DNA from: Candidatus Aenigmatarchaeota archaeon
GTDB lineage: Archaea; Aenigmatarchaeota; Aenigmatarchaeia; QMZP01
Length of the DNA stretch: 39,773 bases
Assembly (NCBI GenBank): GCA_016783545.1
Contig: JADHWJ010000009.1
Span: forward strand, 1-39,773
Direction: 5' to 3'
Of the stretch, positions 1 through 13,209 are shown piece after piece. The translations under genes and the position numbers were made by a program. The notes beneath the pieces were generated by a model. The model was given only the letters and a program-made list of their open reading frames with translations. It was not told where the DNA came from and did not search any database. The number at the start of each line of letters is the position of its first letter. Within the stretch, counting starts at the first letter, position 1.

Positions 1-62
1 GTTCCTAATATAGCAGTTATGAATATGCCATATTTTGTTAGCCCGTTTGAATTTTCTGTCAT
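1..62 (-). CDS. Start of an unknown, possibly membrane, protein running off the window (MTENSNGLTKYGIFITAILGT...)
   Basis: Open minus-strand frame from ATG at 62 to the window edge, 16 bp after the stop of the AbrB-like ORF; hydrophobic. Confidence 0.4.
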   Translation of the reverse strand, partial: MTENSNGLTKYGIFITAILG

Positions 63-77
63 TCTTCCACCTAAACG

Positions 78-656
78 TTAAATGAATTTTTTGGGATTTT
101 TTAAAACACCTGAAAATTCTATTTTATTTAAACCCGGTGATTTACTGTTGAAAGATGTGTGAAATTCTAAATCTGTTATTTCAATCTCACCTTTTTCTGT
201 TTTCAATATCATAGTTTCTATCCCTGTCAGATATCGCCAATTCAATTCATCTATTCCATTTTTCCCATACTTATGGTTTGAAAATATTTTAGAGTTCAAT
301 ACTCTACCCTTAAGAATAATTCCATATACTCTATCTTTAGGGGCATCTTCTAACTTTTGGAATGATTCTCCTGGGTTAAGAACCATAGCTCTTGATGTTA
401 GACTAAAAAAAGCTATATCAATTTTTATAATCTCATCTTTTTTGCTTAATACACTACCATATCCCTCAAATTCATATTCTGATCTTAATTTTTTAATTTC
501 AAGTTCCATTCTAAGTTTCTCTTCATCTATTTTTTCTATTAATGTTTTTACCGAATCACCTTCACTTAAATTTTCTGATTTGTATGTCCCTTGCGGTATT
601 GTTAATACTAAACTTTTTCCTTGTTTCCATATCTTACCTACAAACATCTGAGACAT
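78..656 (-). CDS. SpoVT/AbrB-like DNA-binding N-terminus fused to an uncharacterised domain
   Basis: N-terminus VGKIWKQGKSLVLTIPQGTYKSENLSEGDSVKTLIEKI resembles the AbrB swapped-hairpin pattern; 192-aa ORF. Confidence 0.6.
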   Translation of the reverse strand: MSQMFVGKIWKQGKSLVLTIPQGTYKSENLSEGDSVKTLIEKIDEEKLRMELEIKKLRSEYEFEGYGSVLSKKDEIIKIDIAFFSLTSRAMVLNPGESFQKLEDAPKDRVYGIILKGRVLNSKIFSNHKYGKNGIDELNWRYLTGIETMILKTEKGEIEITDLEFHTSFNSKSPGLNKIEFSGVLKNPKKFI

Positions 657-778
657 TGTTCCACGTTGTATATTTAATCCTTATAATAATTATTAGATAG
701 TGTATTTATAAAGTTTTATTAGATATTCAAGTCAATATTTTCTAAAAACTTATTAACCACAAATACAATTAACAACTA

Positions 779-855
779 TGTCCTCGTCGAAGACCCAAGA
801 CAGAGGACAGAAGACTCAGGGACCAACTTCTCAGCCTGTTATCCCGGTCGGCGCA
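779..855. ncRNA. GC-rich intergenic island, candidate structured ncRNA or tRNA 3'-end relic
   Basis: GC-rich block in very AT-rich DNA; 7-bp stem TGTCCTC(779-785)/GAGGACA(803-809); ends with TCCCGGTCGGCGCA (842-855), which looks like T-stem 3' strand + acceptor 3' strand + discriminator. Confidence 0.3.
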
Positions 856-910
856 TATTCTTTTTTAAATAACATTTTCTTTGTATTGTTGAATCTGTGG
901 TCTAGTAAAT

Positions 911-1939
911 ATGAACATTTATAAACAATTACACTATATAGTATTTATGGCACTAAAAAAGACTTTGGATGGTAGATTCGTAGAAAAAAGAGTAAAAATA
1001 TCATCAAGTTTATTACAAAGAATAATATTAGACACTAAAAAACATAATGAATTTACCTGGAATAGTTTCGCGAATTATTTGGGCATTTCAACGTATACTC
1101 TAAGACATGACTATTTAAAAGGTATCAATACTTTACCACTTTCCACACTTCATAAGATAATAAATATTAATTCTGAATTGGAATGGAAAATAATAAAAGA
1201 AAAAATTAAAATAATAAATCCATTTTGGGGACAAAAAATAATTAAATATAAAAATGTTAATTTCCCAGATACTTTCTCGGAAAAATTTGCAGAGTTTTAC
1301 GGAATTATGCTTGGTGATGGCTGTATTTATTCAAATATATCGGGGTTTTGTATTACATGTGATGCAGTATTAGACAAACCATTTATGGAATATGTAAAAT
1401 TACTAATAATAGATCTATTTGGTATTGAACCTAAGTTATATTATTCTAGAAATGAAAGGGTTGTTAGATGTGTAGTATATAGCCAAGAATTGGTTAGATT
1501 TTTGGTTAAAAATGGCATACCATTGGGAATAAAATCAAAAAATTACAAAACTATACCTAAAAAATATTTTACCAAGAAGGAGCTTTTAAAGACACTAATA
1601 AGAGGTTTGATGGATACTGATGGTAGTGTATTCCCACACCCAGGAGCCAAAATAGTTTCTGATATATCAATAAAGAATAACTCATTATTGATTGATTTTA
1701 TAAAAGCTTTCAAGAAACTTGATTTTCCAGTAAAATCCACAAAAGATAGAATTTATTTTTCAGGAAGTGAGAAATTAAAAAAATATTTTTATTTATTTGG
1801 TAGTTCTAATCCAAAACATATAATAAAATATAAAACATTTATTAAAGGGAATAAAATACCAAAGAGTAATGAACTAGTAAACCTTTTTAAAGAAAATAGT
1901 CTAAAAATGAAATTACCATACTATGGGCCGGTAGTCTAG
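911..1939 (+). CDS. LAGLIDADG homing endonuclease family protein
   Basis: Two LAGLIDADG-like motifs, FYGIMLGDGCIYS and TLIRGLMDTDGSVFP; helix-turn-helix-like N-terminal region; 342 aa. Confidence 0.8.
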   Translation: MNIYKQLHYIVFMALKKTLDGRFVEKRVKISSSLLQRIILDTKKHNEFTWNSFANYLGISTYTLRHDYLKGINTLPLSTLHKIININSELEWKIIKEKIKIINPFWGQKIIKYKNVNFPDTFSEKFAEFYGIMLGDGCIYSNISGFCITCDAVLDKPFMEYVKLLIIDLFGIEPKLYYSRNERVVRCVVYSQELVRFLVKNGIPLGIKSKNYKTIPKKYFTKKELLKTLIRGLMDTDGSVFPHPGAKIVSDISIKNNSLLIDFIKAFKKLDFPVKSTKDRIYFSGSEKLKKYFYLFGSSNPKHIIKYKTFIKGNKIPKSNELVNLFKENSLKMKLPYYGPVV

Positions 1940-1947
1940 TGGTTATG

Positions 1948-1982
1948 GCAGTCACCTGGATTTTTCTAAGTGATTGTAACAC
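1948..1982 (+). other. 35-nt D-arm tRNA intron (about position 23/24)
   Basis: Central helix GTTA(1942-1945)/TAAC(1977-1980); bulges TG|G (1946-1948) and AC|A (1981-1983); inner 7-bp helix CAGTCAC/GTGATTG. Confidence 0.8.
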
Positions 1983-1996
1983 ACGCTGCCCTTACA

Positions 1997-2013
1997 TCCC
2001 TAAGGGGTGAGAA
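1997..2013 (+). other. 17-nt anticodon-loop tRNA intron (37/38)
   Basis: Central helix CTTA(1991-1994)/TGAG(2008-2011); bulges CA|T and AA|A; inner CCC/GGG. Confidence 0.82.
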
Positions 2014-2035
2014 AGGCAGAGATCGCCAGTTCGAT

Positions 2036-2080
2036 CTGCTTGCTCGCAGAGCTCACAAGTCTCTCAAGCAAGCTCGAGAT
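2036..2080 (+). other. 45-nt T-loop tRNA intron (59/60)
   Basis: Central helix TTCG(2030-2033)/CGAG(2075-2078); 3' bulge AT|C (2079-2081); inner helix GCTTGCT/AGCAAGC; removal restores a 7-nt T loop TTCGATC. Confidence 0.82.
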
Positions 2081-2114
2081 CCTGGCTCGGCCCATTCATA
2101 AATTAGTGATACGT

Positions 2115-2666
2115 ATGAATATCCTAAAATTTCTCCAGGAAGTGAATAAGCTCAAACAACTAAAAAGAACGGGTTGGGTTGAAAGAGGAGTGAAAGATGC
2201 AGAATCAAGTGCAGATCATTCTTTTATGACAGCTTTTCATGCGCTTGTTCTCGGAAGCAAAAGAAAAGACCTCAATATGGAAAAAGTCTTGAAAATGGCA
2301 TTGATTCATGAATTGGCTGAGAGTCAAGTAGGTGATATTGTTCTTAAAGAAGTATGGCCTGGTGGTGGAACAATGACATTTGAAGAAAAGCATAAGATAG
2401 AGAAAGAAGCTTTAGATAAACTTCTTGATAATTTGGACCCTAAGATGAGGAATGAATTCATGAATCTCTGGGAGGAATCTGAAAAAGAAGAAACAAAAGA
2501 TGCTGTTTTCCTGAAAAGTGTTGATAGAGCTGAAACAATACTTCAGGCCATAGAATATCATAAAAAAGGTAATTATAAGAAATCTGTAGAAAGTTTCTGG
2601 GATGAAAATGGTTTAAGTTTTATAAAAGACAAAGAAGTTAAAAAAACAGTTCTAAAAGCAATTTAA
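2115..2666 (+). CDS. HD-domain phosphohydrolase (YfbR/HDDC2-like)
   Basis: Start MNILKFLQEVNKLKQLKRTGWVERGVKDAESSADHSF...HELAESQVGDIV carries H...HD-type metal motifs; the longer ORF call starting at 2007 runs through the tRNA. Confidence 0.8.
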   Translation: MNILKFLQEVNKLKQLKRTGWVERGVKDAESSADHSFMTAFHALVLGSKRKDLNMEKVLKMALIHELAESQVGDIVLKEVWPGGGTMTFEEKHKIEKEALDKLLDNLDPKMRNEFMNLWEESEKEETKDAVFLKSVDRAETILQAIEYHKKGNYKKSVESFWDENGLSFIKDKEVKKTVLKAI

Positions 2667-2998
2667 AAAAATGTAAAAATACTGTTAATATTATATGCCC
2701 CCCCCCATATGTTATCCAATAAAACACTCACATATTCATATTTCCTGAAGCTGAGATATGACAAATCTTTGCTTAACCTTAGAAGAACCTGCAGTTTTTG
2801 TATTTCATCTTTGATTTTTCTTCTTTTTGTTACAGTATCACTATTGTTTAAATCTATAATAAGTTCAAGTATCCTAATAGAAGTGAGTTCTATTCTTTGG
2901 GATAATACAATTCTCTGTTTTCTTGGAAATTTGTTAACAGTAGGATATATCCATTTAACCAAATCATATGCTTTCTGAAAGAGCAAATTATATGACAT
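2663..2998 (-). CDS. avd: Avd-like four-helix-bundle DGR accessory protein (S23-like)
   Basis: MSYNLLFQKAYDLVKWIYPTVNKFPRKQRIVLSQRIELTSIRILELIIDLNN...LLRLSKDLSYLSFRKYEYVSVLLDNIWG matches the Avd/four-helix-bundle family pattern; immediately follows the TR. Confidence 0.75.
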   Translation of the reverse strand: MSYNLLFQKAYDLVKWIYPTVNKFPRKQRIVLSQRIELTSIRILELIIDLNNSDTVTKRRKIKDEIQKLQVLLRLSKDLSYLSFRKYEYVSVLLDNIWGGAYNINSIFTFF

Positions 2999-3026
2999 GA
3001 ACATAAACCGTCCAGACAGCATTGAA

Positions 3027-3130
3027 CTATTGGCAGCAACAGACCCTATATCGTCGTTCCTGTTCATGGGGTCGTTGTTGAAGTTCATGTTAAGAGGACC
3101 ATCATCAGGGTCCGCAGAACACCTCACAAC
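3027..3130 (-). repeat. DGR template repeat (TR)
   Basis: 104-nt near-copy of 3606-3709; reads ...CTT AAC ATG AAC TTC AAC AAC GAC CCC ATG AAC AGG AAC GAC... (AAC-rich), with all 14 differences from the VR at TR adenines. Confidence 0.93.
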
Positions 3131-3332
3131 ACAACATGTAGCCCGATTATCAAATATATCCAACTGCTTGGATACACACCACAGCTTTAGCTTCATTTTA
3201 CAGTATTCCGCTATTGCCGCTGAATTTCATGCGCTTTCAGACTTTGCAGGTAACAGATTTGCGCCTGTTCCTCTTTCTCGCGACTATAACCGAGCATGTA
3301 GTTCAAGCGCACGCCAGGGAATACTGTTTATT

Positions 3333-3417
3333 TGAGAATTATGTTCTCAGCAATGCGTCCATGGACGCACCCGCACTGGCGCATAACTGTCTTGGACAGC
3401 TGCCTCTATATTAGAGG
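3333..3417. other. Array of four consecutive inverted repeats between DGR target and TR
   Basis: TGAGAA/TTCTCA (3333-3349), perfect palindrome GCGTCCATGGACGC (3355-3368), CTGTC/GACAG (3387-3399), CCTCTA/TAGAGG (3403-3417). Confidence 0.6.
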
Positions 3418-3451
3418 TAATTAGAATTTGGGCAATAAGAAATTTATTGTT

Positions 3452-4396
3452 TTAATCTATATCATATTCAAATGATGCTTTAATTTTTGAAAGCTTCGCT
3501 TCTGCTGACTCAGCTCTCTTAATGGCTTCTTGTTCGCTTTTAACTATGGAATCATACTCTGATTTTGGAACCGCAGTTTCAGATTGCCTCGCTCCGCTCG
3601 GCAGCCTACTGGCAGCAACAGACCCCATATCGACGCCCCTGCCCATGGGGCCGTAGCTGAAGTCCATGTCAAGAGGACCATCATCAGGGCCCGCAGAACA
3701 CCCCACAACCACAATGCCCGATTTTCTGTCAGACCATACTTTTGATAATCTTCTTTCTGCCTGATTTTCTGTCAGTCCTGTGTTATCCATTATTACTTTA
3801 AGGGCTTTTTCTCTGTTTGGTTCTACTTTCTTTGGAATTCCTGTTAATTGATCATAAGTATGAATTCCGTCAGGAACAGCAAATGCTCCTCTGCTTATGG
3901 GAATTTCAACTGGAATTCTTTCTCCGTCCAAAGGAACATATTTTTCTTCATCCCAGTGCTCAACACCTCTGATAAGCTCTGCATACCTGTATCCTTCTGG
4001 CACAACCCTGCAAACAGGTTTTTCTGCGTCAAAATCAACAGCATCTTTGAACCATACACCAATCCATCTTTCATGGTCCGTGTGTTCAGGGTCTCTTAGA
4101 GCTGCTCTTCTCTGACAATCCAAATATAATTGCTTTCCAAGGTTTCTGTCCCCTTCAGGAAGGTTTGTTATTCTTTCAGGCATAGTTCCTGCCTCTTCAC
4201 ATTCAACAATGTCCTGTCCAAGTTCATAAAAAGAAAGCCATACTGTTAATGGCTGCGATTCTAAGGATGCTTTGTATGCCTGCATTCCCAGGTTTGCTCT
4301 TAATAATGGTATGCCTGAACTGTTTGTTTCCCATATCAGCGCATCCGGGACATGGAATCCCATGTAGCCTGAGTTTGATGTTTCTGAGTTTATCAT
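3452..4396 (-). CDS. DGR target protein with C-type-lectin/FGE-like variable domain and charged C-terminal tail
   Basis: Contains the VR in frame (VVVGCSAGPDDGPLDMDFSYGPMGRGVDMGSVAAS). The ORF opens at 4435, but MINSETSN at 4396 is a likelier start because a TATA-like stretch (TATAAACCTTTAAAAATA) lies inside the longer N-terminus. Confidence 0.8.
   Translation of the reverse strand: MINSETSNSGYMGFHVPDALIWETNSSGIPLLRANLGMQAYKASLESQPLTVWLSFYELGQDIVECEEAGTMPERITNLPEGDRNLGKQLYLDCQRRAALRDPEHTDHERWIGVWFKDAVDFDAEKPVCRVVPEGYRYAELIRGVEHWDEEKYVPLDGERIPVEIPISRGAFAVPDGIHTYDQLTGIPKKVEPNREKALKVIMDNTGLTENQAERRLSKVWSDRKSGIVVVGCSAGPDDGPLDMDFSYGPMGRGVDMGSVAASRLPSGARQSETAVPKSEYDSIVKSEQEAIKRAESAEAKLSKIKASFEYDID
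3606..3709 (-). repeat. DGR variable repeat (VR)
   Basis: Aligned gap-free to TR 3027-3130 over 104 nt; 14 mismatches, all at TR A (12 A->G, 2 A->T). Confidence 0.93.
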
Positions 4397-4517
4397 AGTT
4401 TTAATTGAATGTTTTATTTTTAAAGGTTTATACATGCTAATTTCAATGTGATGGAGAGCTTTATTATCAAAAAAACTGGTTCTAAAAGCAATTAAAGATA
4501 AAAGTTAATTTAGTTAT

Positions 4518-4934
4518 ATGAACGAAGAACAGGTCGTTGGTGTCCTTGGAATTATAAAACATAATGACTCATTTCTATTTGTTAGAAGATCTCCAAAATC
4601 AAAGTTTGAAGCGAATAAATGGGGGTTTGCCGGAGGGGCTGTAAAATTTACTGAAAATCCCATCGATGCACTAAAAAGGGAGATTATGGAAGAAGTAGGA
4701 CTTGAAATAGATAACCACAAACTATTTAATATATACAATGGTGTCTTTGATTCAAACGATAACAAAACAAAAAGACATTCAATATTGATAACATTCATCT
4801 GCGATGTAAAAAACAGAGAGGTCAAATTAAATGAAAAAGAGCATTCAGAGTTTAAATGGACTAATCTGGATGAGATGAAAGAATTGGATGTTATTGAAGG
4901 CAATGAGAAAATATTAGAAGATCTGGGCCGATAG
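4518..4934 (+). CDS. NUDIX hydrolase
   Basis: Nudix box GGAVKFTENPIDALKREIMEEVGLE. Confidence 0.9.
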   Translation: MNEEQVVGVLGIIKHNDSFLFVRRSPKSKFEANKWGFAGGAVKFTENPIDALKREIMEEVGLEIDNHKLFNIYNGVFDSNDNKTKRHSILITFICDVKNREVKLNEKEHSEFKWTNLDEMKELDVIEGNEKILEDLGR

Positions 4935-4968
4935 TCGAACGGTAAGACGCTGCCTCGGCATGGCAGAA

Positions 4969-4983
4969 AGATTAATCCTGCAA
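4969..4983 (+). other. 15-nt variable-loop tRNA intron (about 45/46)
   Basis: BHB: central helix GCAG(4963-4966)/CTGC(4978-4981), bulges AA|A (4967-4969) and AA|A (4982-4984), apical GATTAATC; removal leaves a 5-nt variable loop AAACT. Confidence 0.75.
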
Positions 4984-4997
4984 ACTCCGGGTTCGAA

Positions 4998-5031
4998 AGC
5001 TGGACTAGGCTTTGCCTAGTCGATCTGTAAC
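4998..5031 (+). other. 34-nt T-loop tRNA intron (about 59/60)
   Basis: Interrupts CCGGG-TTCGAA...T-CCCGG; strong apical stem GACTAGGC-TTT-GCCTAGTC; the BHB central helix is imperfect, so the exact ends are uncertain by a few nt. Confidence 0.7.
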
Positions 5032-5097
5032 TCCCGGTCGGTCCATTAAACGTTTATAAACCATTGTTCCAATTCTGCTGTAAAGACCGTGATATGT

Positions 5098-5829
5098 ATG
5101 GAAAGTAAAAACATTATACTCTTTGTAACAGACCTTCATGGAGATGTGAGTGTATATGAAGAATTGTTTAGACTTGGCGCTGGAATGAATGTCAAGGCTA
5201 TTATAATAGGCGGTGATATAACTCCATTCATGATGGGTACAGGAGAAGAGAATATAGCAATTCAAAGAGATTTTATAAAAACCTATCTTATCCCGAGAAT
5301 AAGCAAATTCAAAAAAGATCACAAAAAGGTGGTTTTTCTTATGTTTGGAAACGACGATTTTAAGGTCAACTATGACCTCTTAATTCAAGCCGAGAAGAAA
5401 GGAGTGCTCAAATTACTACACCAGGGTATCCATAAATTGAACGACTGGACTTTGAGAGGATATTCGTTTGTTAACCCTACTCCATTCTTCATAAAAGATT
5501 GGGAAAGGAAAGAAAAAGATATTGAAAAAGATCTGAAGGAAATTGAAAACCAGTGTGCAGAGAAGTCATTAATTGTTTTTCATGCCCCACCCATAAATAC
5601 AAATTTGGATATCATTTATACTGGAGAACATGTTGGAAGTAAATCCATAAGAAAGTTCATTGAAAAAGCACAGCCAACAATGACCTTACACGGACATATA
5701 CACGAAAGCCCTGAGATATCTGGGAACACTATGGATAAGATAGGAGAAACCATCTGTATAAACCCTGGAAACGCTAAGATTATTTTAATAGACCTTGACA
5801 ATCCAAAAAATATAATATTTACCAAGTAA
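5098..5829 (+). CDS. Calcineurin-like metallophosphoesterase
   Basis: VTDLHGDV...GGDIT...FGNDD...HAPP...LHGHIHE motifs; TATA-like TTTATAAA at 5053-5060. Confidence 0.88.
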   Translation: MESKNIILFVTDLHGDVSVYEELFRLGAGMNVKAIIIGGDITPFMMGTGEENIAIQRDFIKTYLIPRISKFKKDHKKVVFLMFGNDDFKVNYDLLIQAEKKGVLKLLHQGIHKLNDWTLRGYSFVNPTPFFIKDWERKEKDIEKDLKEIENQCAEKSLIVFHAPPINTNLDIIYTGEHVGSKSIRKFIEKAQPTMTLHGHIHESPEISGNTMDKIGETICINPGNAKIILIDLDNPKNIIFTK

Positions 5830-5854
5830 ATATTTCTCAATGATTAGAAGATTA

Positions 5855-7687
5855 TTACCTTGATAATATTTTCATTAATATTTTTTTCACCAGCTTTGAG
5901 ATGAATGCGGTCTTGTGACCTATCATCATCATCTGGGGAAGAAGAACTGAAGCACCGAATCCTGTCTTTAATGCAGCCAATAGTATTATCAATGAAAGCA
6001 GAGTTGAAATTAAAATTAAGCTGGATGCTTCATATCCACTCCTACCAAAGAATGCACCAACTGGTGATAGCAATGTATTGCACGTAAGGGTCTTTGGGTT
6101 ACAATCATATTTGCATTTTTTCAGCTGATCCCATTTTGTTCCATCTTTATTACATTCCTGGAGAACATCACTGACGCATCTTTTTGCTTTTGGATCGCAG
6201 ACTTTTTTCTTTTTTTCTTCAGCCTTTTCTTCTTTCTTTTCTGTCTTTCCATCTGTCTTTTCTGATTTTTCTTCTTTCTTTTCTGTTGAAGTGACTGCTG
6301 CCGCGCCACTGCTTCCACTACTTCCTCCTCCTCCGCCATCACTGGCAGCGCTTGTAGTGAAGTTGTAAGTACCTGTTGTGTTGCAATTGTAATTCTGATC
6401 ACATAAAGTTATGTTATAGTAATACACTGTGCTTGCTGAAAGGCCTGTTAGGGTCTGGCTATGATTCTTAGCAAATGTGGTGTTTGTTATACTTGAGGTT
6501 AAGGCACTTGGGCTTGTTCCATAAAGTATTGTTATATTTGTTTTCTCTATTGTATTCCACGCTATTATCGAAGTTGTCACACCCACTGTTGCTGCCTTAT
6601 TTTCTGGAATTGCTACCACCCTATCAATTATAAAGCTGGTAAACGATGTTGGCATATATTTGAAACTTATTGCATTATTTTGGGCAAGCGCTTCCACGTC
6701 AGCCCTGTAATTCCCGTTCTGTATTTCTGAGCCCTCTATATCCCAAACTATGTCATACATCAATTCAATTGAGTAAGTTTCGCTCGTGGAATAGCCAAAG
6801 CCAGGTATTGATGTTGTCTGATTATCTGATTTATAAATCTCTATTTCCTTCAAACCAACATATCTTGATGTTCCATTATCAACAACAAATTTTACAGAAT
6901 TGACATATTTCGGGGCAAATGATATATTCTTTGACTCGTTGCTGCCATTAGCAGGTAATTCACCTACAGTAATATTTGTGCCATCTGAAAATTCAAGGTG
7001 GCTGTCAGATATGTTGATTGTTAAATTTTCTCTATCCCTCAAAATCACAAGATATACCCAATAATATTGCGATAGACTGACATTTATCCATGCCCCCGGT
7101 ATTGTTTCATTCGAAGCCCATTCACTTTCCTCACTAAGATTTCCATCAATAGCAAATGAACAATTAAAGCTTGCATTAAGCTCTGTGCTTGCATTGCAAG
7201 TAGCACCTGTTGTATTAAGTGCTACATTTTCTGTTGTGTTAGTGAAGTTCTGATATGCTCCAAAACTTGTGTTTGTTGTACCTGTAAATGTACCATTAGT
7301 CCCATAACCATAACCCCATGAGTCGCTATTTCCATAAGAACTGTTTATATTAACACGGGATGTTATTGATATTATATTGGTACAAGGGGTTAGGTTAACA
7401 CCGCTCAAATCAAATGTACAATTATCAAACACCTGTCCTGTTGAATTATACTTTATCAAAAAGGTGATGTTCTTGAACGGTATTCTCTCCTCAGCATATT
7501 CTATATCAATATACGCTGTGAATGTTGTATTGTTGTCATTGCTATTAAAAGTCTGTAAAGTACTGGTATTTGTTATGTTGATTCCTGTTATAACAGCAAC
7601 CACAGGCCCGGAATAAGAGACAATAATTATGACAACTATAGTTAAGAATATCGATATTCTTATATCTTCGCTTTTCAGCCTCTCCAT
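5855..7687 (-). CDS. Secreted, membrane-anchored surface protein (discoidin-like and FN3-like regions, KE-rich linker, Cys motif, C-terminal TM)
   Basis: N-terminal TM, many N-x-S/T sequons, YYYNITLCDQNYNCNTTGTYNFTT FN3-like end, EKKEEK linker, SPVGAFFG motif before TM; paralogue of 32329-34050. Confidence 0.75.
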   Translation of the reverse strand: MERLKSEDIRISIFLTIVVIIIVSYSGPVVAVITGINITNTSTLQTFNSNDNNTTFTAYIDIEYAEERIPFKNITFLIKYNSTGQVFDNCTFDLSGVNLTPCTNIISITSRVNINSSYGNSDSWGYGYGTNGTFTGTTNTSFGAYQNFTNTTENVALNTTGATCNASTELNASFNCSFAIDGNLSEESEWASNETIPGAWINVSLSQYYWVYLVILRDRENLTINISDSHLEFSDGTNITVGELPANGSNESKNISFAPKYVNSVKFVVDNGTSRYVGLKEIEIYKSDNQTTSIPGFGYSTSETYSIELMYDIVWDIEGSEIQNGNYRADVEALAQNNAISFKYMPTSFTSFIIDRVVAIPENKAATVGVTTSIIAWNTIEKTNITILYGTSPSALTSSITNTTFAKNHSQTLTGLSASTVYYYNITLCDQNYNCNTTGTYNFTTSAASDGGGGGSSGSSGAAAVTSTEKKEEKSEKTDGKTEKKEEKAEEKKKKVCDPKAKRCVSDVLQECNKDGTKWDQLKKCKYDCNPKTLTCNTLLSPVGAFFGRSGYEASSLILISTLLSLIILLAALKTGFGASVLLPQMMMIGHKTAFISKLVKKILMKILSR

Positions 7688-7761
7688 ACAGTTATTATTT
7701 TATCTTCCATCGTATAAATCTCTTTAAGCATAAAGTCAATTATTGTACAGGTTAGAGATTT

Positions 7762-8181
7762 ATGAAAGTAGTTGCAATTTCAGGATATTTTGACCCTCTT
7801 CATGTAGGGCATATAAGATATATACAGGAAGCAAAGAAACTTGGAGATAAATTGGTAATCATCTTAAATAATGATGAACAGGCCAAGTTGAAGAAAGGAT
7901 TCTCTTTTATGCCATTTGAAGAAAGGAAAGAAATTCTTATGAACATTAAAGACGTGACTGATATTTTTGAGAGCATAGACATTGACTCATCGGTTTGTAA
8001 GTCCTTAGAGGAATTAAAACCAAACATATTTGCTAACGGTGGTGATAGGAATAAAGGAAACATACCTGAAGTTAAGATATGTGAAAAAAACAACATTGAG
8101 CTCATTGATAATATAGGCGGTGGCAAAATACAGTCAAGCAATTGGCTATTGTCAAATTTCAGAAAACACTTAAGAATTTAA
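7762..8181 (+). CDS. HIGH-motif cytidylyltransferase-like nucleotidyltransferase
   Basis: GYFDPLHVGHIRYIQEAKKLGDKLVIILNND and GGGKIQSSNWL. Confidence 0.85.
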   Translation: MKVVAISGYFDPLHVGHIRYIQEAKKLGDKLVIILNNDEQAKLKKGFSFMPFEERKEILMNIKDVTDIFESIDIDSSVCKSLEELKPNIFANGGDRNKGNIPEVKICEKNNIELIDNIGGGKIQSSNWLLSNFRKHLRI

Positions 8182-8200
8182 TTTTTATAAAAAATAAAGG

Positions 8201-9277
8201 ATGAAGATTTTAATTTTCAATTGGCGTGATATAAAAAACACAGAATCTGGCGGAGCAGAGGTCTTTATACATGAAATAGCAAAGAGATGGGCAAAAAAGC
8301 ATGATGTTGTGCTCTTTGCTTCTAATTCAAATGGTTCTAATGTGAAAGAGGTTATTGATGGTGTAAAGATAATCAGAATGGGTGGAAGATACTCTGTCTA
8401 CTCGAAAGCAAAAAAATGTTATAATAGACATTTTTCTAAGGAGAATTTTGATGTTATCATAGATGTTATCAATACACGGCCCTTCTTCACACCGAATTTT
8501 GTCAAGAATGGTGAAAAGATAATAGCCATTATATTTCAACTGGCAAGAGAGTTCTGGTTCTATGAGACCATGTTCCCTTTTAATGTATTGGGCTATCATT
8601 TTCTAGAGGATAGGTGGCTAAAGAAATACAGAAACACACCCACTGTTACGATATCTGATTCCACGAAAAAAGATCTGAATGATCTTGGTTTTAAGAAAGT
8701 TTTTCTAGCCAATTGTGGACTAAACACCAAACCTATTGATGAAGTTGAAAAAGCTGGAAAACCAATCATTATTTTTCTTGGAAGGATGGGAAGGGCTAAA
8801 AAGCCACAGGATGTAATGAAAGCGTTTAAGATTGTTAAAGAAGATGTAAAGGACGCGGAATTATGGATGGTTGGTGATGGTTTTCTTAAGAAAAGACTTG
8901 AGTCAAGGAACATGAAGGATGTAAAATTCTTTGGACATGTAAACAATAAAGCCAGAGATGAATTGGTAAAAAAGGCCTGGGTTATAGCTGTTCCTGGAGT
9001 AAGAGAAGGTTGGGGAATGGTGGTTACAGATGCGAATGCTCTGGGAACGCCTGCAGTCGGCTATAACATTCACGGATTAAGAGATTCAATAAAGAATGGA
9101 TACAATGGACTCTCTGTAGATAATAATCCAGAAGAAATGGCTAAAGGTATTATAACTATTTTAAAGGATAGTGAGTTAAGGGAAAGGTTGAGCAAAAACT
9201 CAGTAGACTGGGCCAGGCAGTTTAATTGGGATGAAACGGCTAAGAAAATCTTAAAGGTGATGAAAGATGTCATTTAG
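8201..9277 (+). CDS. GT4 family glycosyltransferase
   Basis: GGAEVFIHEIAKRWAKKHDVVLF; C-terminal VPGVREGWGMVVTDANALGTPAVGYN. Confidence 0.88.
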   Translation: MKILIFNWRDIKNTESGGAEVFIHEIAKRWAKKHDVVLFASNSNGSNVKEVIDGVKIIRMGGRYSVYSKAKKCYNRHFSKENFDVIIDVINTRPFFTPNFVKNGEKIIAIIFQLAREFWFYETMFPFNVLGYHFLEDRWLKKYRNTPTVTISDSTKKDLNDLGFKKVFLANCGLNTKPIDEVEKAGKPIIIFLGRMGRAKKPQDVMKAFKIVKEDVKDAELWMVGDGFLKKRLESRNMKDVKFFGHVNNKARDELVKKAWVIAVPGVREGWGMVVTDANALGTPAVGYNIHGLRDSIKNGYNGLSVDNNPEEMAKGIITILKDSELRERLSKNSVDWARQFNWDETAKKILKVMKDVI

Positions 9278-9923
9278 GCTTAATATTTTTAACAGTTGGT
9301 CAGAGGCGAGAAATAAAGATATAGTATCTCTTTTGGAACGCAACCCAAACGCTAATGTTATTGATTTGGGGTGTGGTGATGGAAAGTTCACATCTGAGAT
9401 AAAGAGCAAGATTAGTTGTGAAAATATTGTAGGTATTGATATTGAAAATAAATTGAAAGGAAATAACATTGCATTTAAAGAGGCTGACCTGAACAAGAAA
9501 TTTCCTTTTCAGGATAATAGCTTTGATGTTATTGTGTCAAATCAGGTCATTGAACACATTCTCTACCCGTTCAGGTTTATGAAAGAATTGTACAGGATAC
9601 TAAAACCAGCTGGCTATGTCATATTATCAACTGAAAACCTAGCGAGCCTGGATAACATAATTGCAGTCATTATGGGTTACATGCCCTTCTCTGTTCAGGT
9701 AGATGAAATATGCAAAATCGGAAATCCTTTGGCGTCTGAGATAAAGGGCTATAGAAAATATCCCCATGTTAGGATTTTTACATGGAAAGGATTAGCTGAT
9801 ATGATGAAACTTGTTGGTTTTAGAATAGAAAAGACAGCAGGTAATGGACATATTTTTGGAAAGCCTGGTGAAATGATTAATAAGAAGAGATGCAGGTTTA
9901 TCACATTTAAGGTGAGAAAATGA
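9267..9923 (+). CDS. SAM-dependent methyltransferase
   Basis: VIDLGCGDGKFTSEI motif I; NSFDVIVSNQVIEHI. Confidence 0.85.
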   Translation: MSFRLNIFNSWSEARNKDIVSLLERNPNANVIDLGCGDGKFTSEIKSKISCENIVGIDIENKLKGNNIAFKEADLNKKFPFQDNSFDVIVSNQVIEHILYPFRFMKELYRILKPAGYVILSTENLASLDNIIAVIMGYMPFSVQVDEICKIGNPLASEIKGYRKYPHVRIFTWKGLADMMKLVGFRIEKTAGNGHIFGKPGEMINKKRCRFITFKVRK

Positions 9924-10525
9924 TTAAATCAGGAAGGTTAAAAGTTATTGGAGAACTTATTGGTGAGAAACCCAAAAGGAATTCTTCACTATCGATTGGT
10001 TCAAAGTATGTTGATTTTAATACAATAAATCTTGATGTAAAACACTCACCAGGGCTTGATATAATTGCAGATGCCAGGCACCTTCCTTTCAAGCAGGATT
10101 CATTTGAGCTAATACTCTTTACTGATGTTATTGAACATCTTCCTGAGGATGAAGAAGACAATGCATTGAAAGAGATCCATAGAACCTTAAGGAGTAATGG
10201 TAGAGTAATCCTTTCCACACCAAACGACAGGTTCCTGTTCAAATATCTTGATCCTTCTTTCTGGTTAATAAAACATAGACACTACAAGAATCATGATATT
10301 AGAAAATTCTTGGAGAATAATAATTTCAAGATAGAGTCCATCTTTACATCTGGTGGCTGGTGGGCATGTGCAGGCAATCTCTGGCACTGCGTAATAACAT
10401 ATCCACTGAATAGAATTCTTAATAGAAAAATTATGCCATCATTAATAGAAAAGATGGAAAACAAGGAATATAATTTCCAAAAGAATGATAATGGATATAC
10501 AATATATGTGAAGGCGATAAAATGA
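9920..10525 (+). CDS. SAM-dependent methyltransferase-like protein
   Basis: DARHLPFKQDSFELILFTDVIEHLPEDEEDNALKEIHRTLRSNGRVILSTPN. Confidence 0.8.
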   Translation: MIKSGRLKVIGELIGEKPKRNSSLSIGSKYVDFNTINLDVKHSPGLDIIADARHLPFKQDSFELILFTDVIEHLPEDEEDNALKEIHRTLRSNGRVILSTPNDRFLFKYLDPSFWLIKHRHYKNHDIRKFLENNNFKIESIFTSGGWWACAGNLWHCVITYPLNRILNRKIMPSLIEKMENKEYNFQKNDNGYTIYVKAIK

Positions 10526-11322
10526 ATCTGGTTTCAGTGATAATACCAACATATAACAATGAAAGAACCTTAGGAGAATGCATAGATTCGATTAAAAAAC
10601 AGACTTATGTGGATATTGAAATAATTATTGTGGATAATAACTCAAATGACAACACTCAGGCGATCGCGAAAAAAATGGGTGCAAAAGTCATACAATTGAA
10701 TGCTGAGAGAACAACATCAAAGAATTTCGGGGCTGAGAAAGCAAAGGGTAGATATGTCTGTTTTATTGACTCTGATATGATACTGACCTCTAATGTTATC
10801 AAAGAATCTGTATTGATAGCCGGAAAAGAGAATGTTGGCGGCATTGTAATTCCAGAAATGTCAACTGGAAACTCGTTTTGGACCAAAGTCAGAAACTTTG
10901 AGAGAAGTTTCTATAAGAATACAATAGTTGAATCCGCGAGATTTTTCAGAAGGGACCTTATACTGAAATCCGGTGGCTTTGATGAAAATCTGGTCTGCTA
11001 TGAAGAGAGCACTCTCCCACAGAAAATCGAAAAGCTGGGATTTAGCATCAATGCAAGAACTGAAGCAGAAATTCTACACAATGAAAACGATTTCTCCATT
11101 ATGAAGTGGCTGAACAGAAAATTTTATTATGGAAAAAGCGTTTGGGAATATGGAAGCAATTATAAGGAATATGGAAGCAAGCAGATTGGTTTTCTTTATA
11201 GGTCCAGATTATTCTTCAACAATAAAAGATTTTATTCAAACCCTGTGCTTATGGCAGGCGTAATTGTATTAAAGACTTTAGAATACATATCAGCATTTTT
11301 CGGTCATCTGATAAAAAAATAA
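10522..11322 (+). CDS. GT2 family glycosyltransferase
   Basis: VSVIIPTYNNERTLGECIDSIKKQTYVDIEIIIVDNNSNDNT...FIDSDM. Confidence 0.88.
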   Translation: MNLVSVIIPTYNNERTLGECIDSIKKQTYVDIEIIIVDNNSNDNTQAIAKKMGAKVIQLNAERTTSKNFGAEKAKGRYVCFIDSDMILTSNVIKESVLIAGKENVGGIVIPEMSTGNSFWTKVRNFERSFYKNTIVESARFFRRDLILKSGGFDENLVCYEESTLPQKIEKLGFSINARTEAEILHNENDFSIMKWLNRKFYYGKSVWEYGSNYKEYGSKQIGFLYRSRLFFNNKRFYSNPVLMAGVIVLKTLEYISAFFGHLIKK

Positions 11323-11352
11323 CTACTTATTTCTTAGATTCTATTCATATCT

Positions 11353-13209
11353 ATGTGTGGCATAAACGGGTTTACTTTTCAAGATGAGAGGCTCATAAAG
11401 GAAATGAACAATTTAATAAAACATAGAGGACCAGACTCCTCTGGCATATACTCTGATGAGAATGTTACATTAGGTCATCAAAGGCTTAAGATAATAGATC
11501 TTTCAGAAAATGCTGCGCAGCCCATGTCAGACCATGAAAATACATTGTGGCTAGTTTTCAATGGAGAGATATATAATTTCCAGGAATTAAGAAAGAAATT
11601 GGAACAAGATGGTCACAAATTCAAATCAGAATCTGATACTGAGGTGATAATACATGCTTATAAGAAATGGGGCTATGATTGTGTTCAGCGTTTCAATGGA
11701 ATGTGGGCTTTTGCGCTGTATGACAAAAACAAGCTCTTCCTTAGCAGGGATAGGTTAGGCAAAAAGCCATTGTTTTACACGCAGAAAGGCAAGAATCTTT
11801 TCTTCAGTTCAGAAATAAGACCTTTATTTGCTCATGATATTGAGAAGAAGCTCAACAAGAGGGCTGTCTCCTCTTTCCTTTCATATAGGTATGTTCTTGG
11901 CAAAGAGACCATGTTTGAGGGTATATTCAAATTGCTTCCAGCGCATAACATGATCTTTGACATTTCCAAAGGTGTTATAGAGAAGATATGGGAATACTGG
12001 GATGTCGATAAAAATAATATAGAAATTTCTGAGGAAGAAGCTAAGGAGCAGACTGAAGATCTGCTCAGAAATTCTGTTTCTCTCAGACAGGTCTCTGATG
12101 TTCCCATAGGAAGCATAAACTCAGGCGGGCTCGATTCAAGCCTGATTTCAGCCATAATGGCATCCATGCATGATAATCCAATAAACACATTCACAGTAAA
12201 ATTACCAGAAAGGGGCTTTGATGAGACAGAGTTTGCAGGGCTTTTGGCTAGCCATTGCAAAACTAATCACAGAGAAATAACAATAGATACAACTAATTTT
12301 TTGGATATAATGAGAGAATATGTTAAAAGGAAAGATGAACCCATCGGTGTTCCAAATGAGATAGCACTATACACGCTCTTCCAGGAGATAAAAAAATATG
12401 CAACTGTAGTGCTCTCTGGCGAAGGTGCTGATGAGCTGTTTGCAGGCTATAGCAGAATATTTAGAAGTCCTTTTGATTATGAAAGGCTTAAAGCCGGCAG
12501 GTATAAAAACAAGTATCCAAGCCTATACAAGAAATACTCTGGAAGAACTTTCAGCAATGAGTTAGAACATTTTATGTATCTTTATAATTATTTTCCTGAT
12601 GAAGAAAAGAACAGCATATTGAAAGATGAATTCAGGGTTGATTTCACTACATTATTTAAAAAATATTTTGACAGAATAAACGGTTCCTATGCTAAGAAGA
12701 TCTCTTACATATTCATTAAATTACATCTTCCAGGACTTTTCTCAAGGCTTGACAATTCATCCATGACCAGTGCTGTTGAAGCAAGATGTCCTTTTGTTGA
12801 TTATAGATTTGTAGATCTGGCATTCAATCTCCCATTTGAATTAAAAAATCCATGGAAATCTGAAAAGGATAAAGAAGAGGCTAAGAGTAAAAATTGTGAT
12901 GAGATAGCAGAGGAGCACGATACGGTCAAATACATCCTCAAGAGAATAGCAGAAAACCACATACCGAAAGAGATAATAATGAGAAAGAAACAGGGCTTTC
13001 CTCTGCCCCTCCAGAAATGGTTCAGTGGAGAATTCTTTGAAGAAGCCAGGAATCTGCTACTTTCAGAGGACTCTAAAATAAAAATGGTTGCAAAAACTGA
13101 AAATCTTAAGAAATGGATACAGAATGGTATTGATTCTGACAGCAAAGATTTTGGTCAGAGGCTATGGATGTTGATTAGCTTAGAATTGTGGCTCAGAGAA
13201 TGGTTTTAG
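11353..13209 (+). CDS. asnB: Asparagine synthase (glutamine-hydrolysing)-like amidotransferase
   Basis: N-terminal MCGINGF Cys nucleophile, NLIKHRGPDSSG, and SGGLDSSL PP-loop. Confidence 0.9.
   Translation: MCGINGFTFQDERLIKEMNNLIKHRGPDSSGIYSDENVTLGHQRLKIIDLSENAAQPMSDHENTLWLVFNGEIYNFQELRKKLEQDGHKFKSESDTEVIIHAYKKWGYDCVQRFNGMWAFALYDKNKLFLSRDRLGKKPLFYTQKGKNLFFSSEIRPLFAHDIEKKLNKRAVSSFLSYRYVLGKETMFEGIFKLLPAHNMIFDISKGVIEKIWEYWDVDKNNIEISEEEAKEQTEDLLRNSVSLRQVSDVPIGSINSGGLDSSLISAIMASMHDNPINTFTVKLPERGFDETEFAGLLASHCKTNHREITIDTTNFLDIMREYVKRKDEPIGVPNEIALYTLFQEIKKYATVVLSGEGADELFAGYSRIFRSPFDYERLKAGRYKNKYPSLYKKYSGRTFSNELEHFMYLYNYFPDEEKNSILKDEFRVDFTTLFKKYFDRINGSYAKKISYIFIKLHLPGLFSRLDNSSMTSAVEARCPFVDYRFVDLAFNLPFELKNPWKSEKDKEEAKSKNCDEIAEEHDTVKYILKRIAENHIPKEIIMRKKQGFPLPLQKWFSGEFFEEARNLLLSEDSKIKMVAKTENLKKWIQNGIDSDSKDFGQRLWMLISLELWLREWF

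Follow-up and report, generated by a model that had tools for sequence, protein, structure and literature searches.

The window, a stretch of 39,773 nucleotides from a Candidatus Aenigmatarchaeota archaeon (contig JADHWJ010000009.1), contains a genuine diversity-generating retroelement (DGR) of a known kind. As a DGR it is nothing unusual for DPANN archaea, a superphylum with known cases of several DGRs in one genome. The surprise for a specialist is a poly-G tract that the cassette shares with its relatives; the cassette is also a variant in having no reverse transcriptase (RT). On balance, and with some reserve, we favor the reading that the window cassette is an active DGR unit served by an RT in trans. 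The wider proposal, on which we are evenly divided, is that Aenigmatarchaeota DGRs may be phase-variable, with the G tract switching the RT or an Avd-RT fusion on and off, and that the cassette without an RT would be driven in trans by these switchable sister RTs.

Results

An adenine-specific TR/VR pair

Repeat search and pairwise alignment placed a template repeat (TR) at 3027-3130 and a variable repeat (VR), in frame in the target gene, at 3606-3709, both on the minus strand. In the repeat search this pair is the longest direct repeat within positions 1-12000. The original prediction held that the two repeats align over 104 nt without gaps and that all of their differences lie at template adenines. 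Our minus-strand alignment reproduced this A-only pattern: 14 mismatches, 14/14 at an A of the TR (12 A>G, 2 A>T and 0 A>C). With 27 A among the 104 nt of the TR, the hypergeometric probability of 14/14 is ~2.5e-10. Every C, G and T had also been said to be identical in the two repeats, and all 77 non-A positions of the TR are indeed the same in the VR. The likeness breaks off abruptly at either end of the alignment, and the VR substitutions fall on N, D, R and I codons of the target ORF. Genome-wide searches found no remote VR for the TR of the window or for that of the sister cassette on C15 (see below).

The presence of a 104-nt segment in two copies would also be expected if TR and VR were ordinary duplicated gene segments that had diverged by normal mutation. 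We regard this as vanishingly improbable: all 14 changes sit at A of one copy, at the probability given above, and sister and related cassettes, whose TR sequences are different, show the A-only pattern too, beside Avd, RT and RT-16. Such A-only differences, seen in independent cassettes too, rule out ordinary paralogy.

The final mismatch, CCAATAG in the TR and CCAGTAG in the VR, is identical in 7/7 comparable Avd-type cassettes. It lies in an IMH-like VR end, AGTAGG (3605-3610, minus strand; TR counterpart AATAGT), that is likewise invariant in 7/7 of these cassettes. Because it is the same in all seven, we read the AATAG/AGTAG mismatch as a fixed IMH*/IMH difference, which leaves 13 mutagenic sites. 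The 14 differences had been taken together as the signature of mutagenesis; 13 of them keep that meaning and this one does not.

Components of the cassette

The order on the minus strand of the window is target gene with VR, GGA-loop element, RT-16 leader, TR and Avd. The target gene (3452-4435, minus strand; from the ORF list) encodes an orphan protein of up to 327 aa, and the ATG at 4396 is its likelier start. The VR begins at about codon 243 of the 327 codons and is followed by ~50 codons; past the VR the protein has a C-terminal coiled-coil-like extension. DGR targets are expected to have a C-type lectin-like (or Ig-like) fold; this protein has no Pfam or NCBIfam match, and a PDB sequence search gave no credible match. 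An AlphaFold2 model built from four sequences is of low confidence (pLDDT 38).

Just 3' of the VR lies GCCGAGCGGAGCGAGGC (3586-3602, minus strand), an imperfect hairpin with a GGA trinucleotide loop. Sister and related cassettes keep the element both where it encodes AERSEA and where it falls past the stop codon. In the seven cassettes the AATAG/AGTAG site is followed by a G and then by GCCGAGCGGAGCGAGGC, which is slightly altered in one. The predicted stability of the hairpin is not above that of shuffled sequences, so the call is based on conservation, not on energy.

An Rfam match to the RT-16 RNA (RF03019) identifies a conserved leader at 3133-3335 (minus strand), ending 2 nt before the TR. 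Its 42 bits fall short of the family's gathering score (50) and place it among the lowest-scoring full-length RT-16 leaders in the phylum; the leaders of the sister cassettes reach 61 and 80 bits. Wherever RT-16 and TR could both be placed in a cassette, RT-16 ends at the TR 5' end or at most 4 nt from it, and for this reason RT-16 is probably the 5' domain of the TR RNA.

The Avd-like protein that had been reported directly after the TR proved to be Avd (2663-3004, minus strand), matched by three profile libraries: NCBIfam NF033474 (4e-21, 75.2 bits; cut-off 80), Pfam PF22296 (1.5e-15, 58.1 bits; cut-off 40) and phrog_3206, 'Avd protein of DGR' (2.9e-20). Its ORF and that of the target are both intact. 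Outside a near-identical stretch (see below), the window avd differs from the avd on C16 at 33/216 nt (dS 0.59, dN 0.09); these rates, an average over both branches that also covers the time before RT loss, point to average purifying selection on the window Avd.

The identification as a DGR gains from the Avd, the hairpin, the IMH/IMH* pair and the RT-16 leader, and from paralogous cassettes in the same genome with DGR-type RTs. The part of the original prediction that did not stand is its treatment of the element as complete, since the RT is missing; it also did not pick up the G tract or the duplication at the flanks.

The missing RT and the sister cassettes

No reverse transcriptase was found in the window. 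Two RVT_1 genes lie elsewhere in the genome, which comprises 885,693 bp on 18 contigs and is ~70% complete: one is on C17 and one on C16, both with YxDD and [IL]GNLTSQ motifs. In the C17 cassette (L008) the RT follows the target, and the cassette has its own A-only TR/VR pair and RT-16, without Avd. The second RT, at the end of C16 (L010), comes after an Avd that is cut off where the contig stops; the matching 5' part of Avd is found at the start of C15 (L009), together with a TR, RT-16 and a target with VR. C15 and C16 are joined by a 36-nt overlap, and the TR/VR pair for the C16 RT lies on C15. The Avd/TR-flanking RNA of the window and that of the C15 cassette are nearly identical over ~115 nt, with 1 difference in 117 nt. 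These two cassettes also agree in their AGTAGG/hairpin signals, and the RT-16 leader is common to all three.

The TR and VR of the sister cassettes (L008 1496-2073; L009 148-276 and 607-714) also differ by indels of ~20 nt (21 nt in C15), and the extra TR stretches are bounded by short direct repeats, as though template had been skipped by the RT. Further along C15, at L009 2491-4482, a 663-aa ORF that by eye resembles a ferredoxin oxidoreductase beta subunit is broken by an intein-like segment with LAGLIDADG-like motifs.

Across 156 genomes of the phylum, RT-16 occurs at 30 sites in 23 genomes, and for 27 of the 30 sites an RT is encoded nearby on that contig. The remaining three are the C15 contig end, a partial match (G111:C15) and the window. 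Setting aside C15, which lies at a contig end, the window's is the one complete RT-16/TR/Avd cassette in the 156 genomes that has no RT.

Insertion site and flanking repeats

The 3' end of an HD-domain (YfbR-like) gene (2115-2666, plus strand; identified by profile match and homologue comparison) is duplicated around the cassette. Repeat search located the left direct repeat, GTTCTAAAAGCAATT, in the 3' end of the HD gene at 2649-2663 and the right copy of the same 15-mer at 4479-4493, both on the plus strand. The 15-mer is part of a 32-nt repeat (81%) that lies exactly either side of the cassette (2640-2671 and 4470-4501), and 0/200 shuffles gave a repeat of equal quality. The HD gene ends in the left copy, with ...KKTVLKAI*. 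Translated, the right copy would give ...KKLVLKAIKDKS*, which is closer to the C-terminus of the nearest homologue (...LLLKAIKMQE*). The arrangement looks as though the cassette had entered the gene at its 3' end, with ~25 nt duplicated. Because the flanking repeats have already diverged, yet TR and VR show no non-A difference in 104 nt, the comparison suggests that the VR was rewritten after the cassette was inserted.

None of the other cassettes tested has a significant flanking repeat, G031 apart. In that genome a complete DGR cassette has an intact tRNA gene on one side and, on the other, a copy of that gene's 3' end matching at 19/21 positions. The bounds of the G031 cassette (L263 4065-4168 and 1197-1217, both on the minus strand) are attL/attR-like, as an integrase would leave; no integrase gene was seen between the tRNA gene and the copy of its 3' end.

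Elsewhere in the window, a free-standing LAGLIDADG endonuclease gene (911-1939) is directly followed by a tRNA-like, possibly intron-bearing sequence (~1930-2095), and a second tRNA-like sequence lies at ~4922-5046, both noted by eye. Scans of the window for tRNAs with ARAGORN and Rfam returned nothing and called neither sequence.

Poly-G tracts at DGR loci

A run search found a tract of nine G (G9; 2698-2706, minus strand) in the 3' end of the window avd, at the place where the RT follows in related cassettes. The whole genome has three runs of at least 9 G, one per DGR cassette: G9 in the window, G10 in C16 (44555-44564 of the contig; L010 6556-6565) and G13 in C17 (L008 1756-1768).

The association holds across the phylum, where 19/30 DGR loci have a G tract of 9-13 G (tract lengths are those of the assemblies, with one genome per species). 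In 24 DGR-bearing genomes, 19/38 G tracts lie within 1 kb of a DGR RT or Avd, where the genomic background would predict 0.084; each of the 19 is on the RT coding strand. A G tract is present in 22/26 DGR-bearing genomes versus 36/119 others (Fisher p 7e-7); the G-tract statistics are post hoc, the tract having been noticed before testing, and the margin is very large. At the other archaeal, bacterial and viral DGR loci examined the tract is absent, scattered cases excepted.

The tract occupies three kinds of position. At Avd-type loci it is found at the 3' end of avd, in most cases with 2-9 nt separating it from the start codon of the RT, and the frame relation of avd to RT varies: an in-frame fusion at 2 loci, +1 at 4 and -1 at 2. 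At Avd-less loci it lies upstream of RT-16, among the opening codons of an ORF that seems to be leaderless and begins ~29 nt after a TATA-like box. At the assembled tract length this ORF is open in 2 loci (79 and 155 codons) and closed after 10-24 codons in 4. At 2 loci the tract lies inside the RT, and the RT of G102 is split into two frames exactly at the tract. In the window the tract affects only the C-terminus of Avd.

The varying frames between loci suggest that these DGRs are phase-variable. Mixed frame states at a conserved position match the prediction of slipped-strand phase variation. Programmed frameshifting at the tract was also considered, and the non-conserved frame relation of Avd and RT argues against it. 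It is possible that the G run at Avd-type loci is a Shine-Dalgarno-like element for the RT, with or without length variation.

Another G tract was seen in G091 (L092 2395-2404), where a G10 splits an Eco57I-like N6 DNA methylase into two overlapping ORFs, with profile positions 1-68 and 73-167 either side of the tract. It would seem to be an archaeal restriction-modification gene subject to phase variation, and methylases of this sort are typical phase-variable genes.

Discussion

From sequence we infer three things about the window cassette: that it is still active, that its RT acts in trans and that it arrived by insertion. The cassette would have come as a unit to the 3' end of the HD-domain gene, either without an RT or losing it later. 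Its RT-16/TR/Avd transcript would then be reverse transcribed, with adenine errors, by an RT from a sister cassette, and the cDNA would replace the VR up to the AGTAGG/hairpin boundary, so that the target protein is diversified. If the cassette is active, its RT must come from another locus, since it has none of its own. A shared RT is plausible because the window and C15 cassettes have near-identical TR-flanking RNA and agree in their AGTAGG/hairpin signals, and because the three cassettes have an RT-16 leader in common. The most likely donor would be the C16 cassette, to which the Avd and TR-flanking RNA are most similar.

The chief rival to an RT in trans is that the cassette is a recent relic, a complete DGR that lost its RT by a deletion beside the G tract, the VR having last been rewritten before that and the system now being dead. 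Decayed DGRs are common in relatives, with stops or broken RT frames in G111, G102, G108, G075, G117 and G051; the low score of the window RT-16 leader would fit decay, and only ~34 nt separate the G tract from the flanking repeat. Against a relic stand the 0 non-A differences in 104 nt of TR and VR, in a cassette whose flanking repeats have already diverged, and the intact target and Avd ORFs, with Avd under average purifying selection. We consider a relic possible and rather unlikely.

A further alternative lies in the assembly. About 110 nt of avd (108-113 nt) are identical between window positions 2874-2987, L009 1-108 and the end of L010, and the C15 start and the C16 end both fall within this shared stretch. 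We examined whether a constraint on the RNA could account for the 113-nt identity and found codon conservation across genera only mildly raised (codons 10-20, 0.62 vs ~0.4). A recent exchange between the cassettes or an assembly effect is likelier than RNA constraint. The cassettes could have been mis-paired in assembly, such that the TR/VR half of the window Avd continues into the Avd-RT of C16 and the half of Avd without an RT is that of C15; under this pairing an RT would lie in cis to the window TR, and C15 would hold the RT-less cassette. Contigs typically break in such a stretch, as C15 and C16 do in the ~113 nt identical to the window, and the stretch is identical while the remaining Avd has a dS of 0.59. 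However, the window cassette has a copy of the HD 3'-end repeat at each flank, as would be expected only of flanks that share one insertion, and an Avd half without an RT exists whichever pairing holds. We judge mis-pairing improbable.

For the wider proposal of phase-variable DGRs, the Avd/RT junction, the RT itself or the leader would hold a hypermutable G tract that switches expression reversibly, and hypermutation of the target would become a reversible stochastic trait. If the G tracts are contingency tracts, two mechanisms of random diversification are stacked: slippage picks the cells that hypermutate, and the DGR then hypermutates. Phase variation, if true, would bear on the question of how the cost of having a DGR is kept down in archaea, and would add to the few archaeal examples of slipped-strand phase variation. 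We found no paper joining DGRs with slipped-strand variation in a literature search that did not take in the 2017 archaeal DGR survey. The cassette without an RT, if active in trans, would mean that DGR RTs serve TRs at other loci. RT-16, as a putative 5' domain of archaeal TR RNA, would offer a sequence marker for cassettes that does not rely on the RT.

Comparison with known systems

In the DGR of Bordetella phage BPP-1, a VR in the target, a TR, Avd and an RT support adenine-specific mutagenic retrohoming, with a hairpin downstream of the VR. The window cassette has the VR in the target, the TR, the Avd and the hairpin downstream of the VR in common with it. It differs in its order, target-TR-Avd-(RT) with an RT-16 leader, in having a trinucleotide-loop instead of a tetraloop hairpin and in the missing RT. 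Each of the three cassettes of this genome has the RT-16 RNA (RF03019), a family that in the phylum is nearly always found near a DGR RT.

The nanoarchaeal (DUSEL4) DGRs comprise several cassettes in a DPANN genome, with orphan targets, a hairpin with a GRA trinucleotide loop inside the target gene, IMH/IMH* sequences (TGGGGT/TGGAAT) that differ at A/G, and fragmentary DGRs too (Paul et al., 2015; PMC4372165). The cassettes described here resemble them in their number per genome, orphan targets, GRA-type loop hairpin and A/G difference between IMH and IMH*. They differ in the sequences AGTAGG/AATAGT, in a clear Avd and in the cassette without an RT. The account of the nanoarchaeal DGRs (PMC4372165) has no mention of poly-G tracts, frameshift or homopolymer. 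For the tracts the likeness is to the poly-G contingency loci of Campylobacter, Helicobacter and Neisseria, where G tracts near or inside genes turn the frame on or off by their length; the tracts reported here, read from assemblies, differ from these in belonging to archaea and to DGRs.
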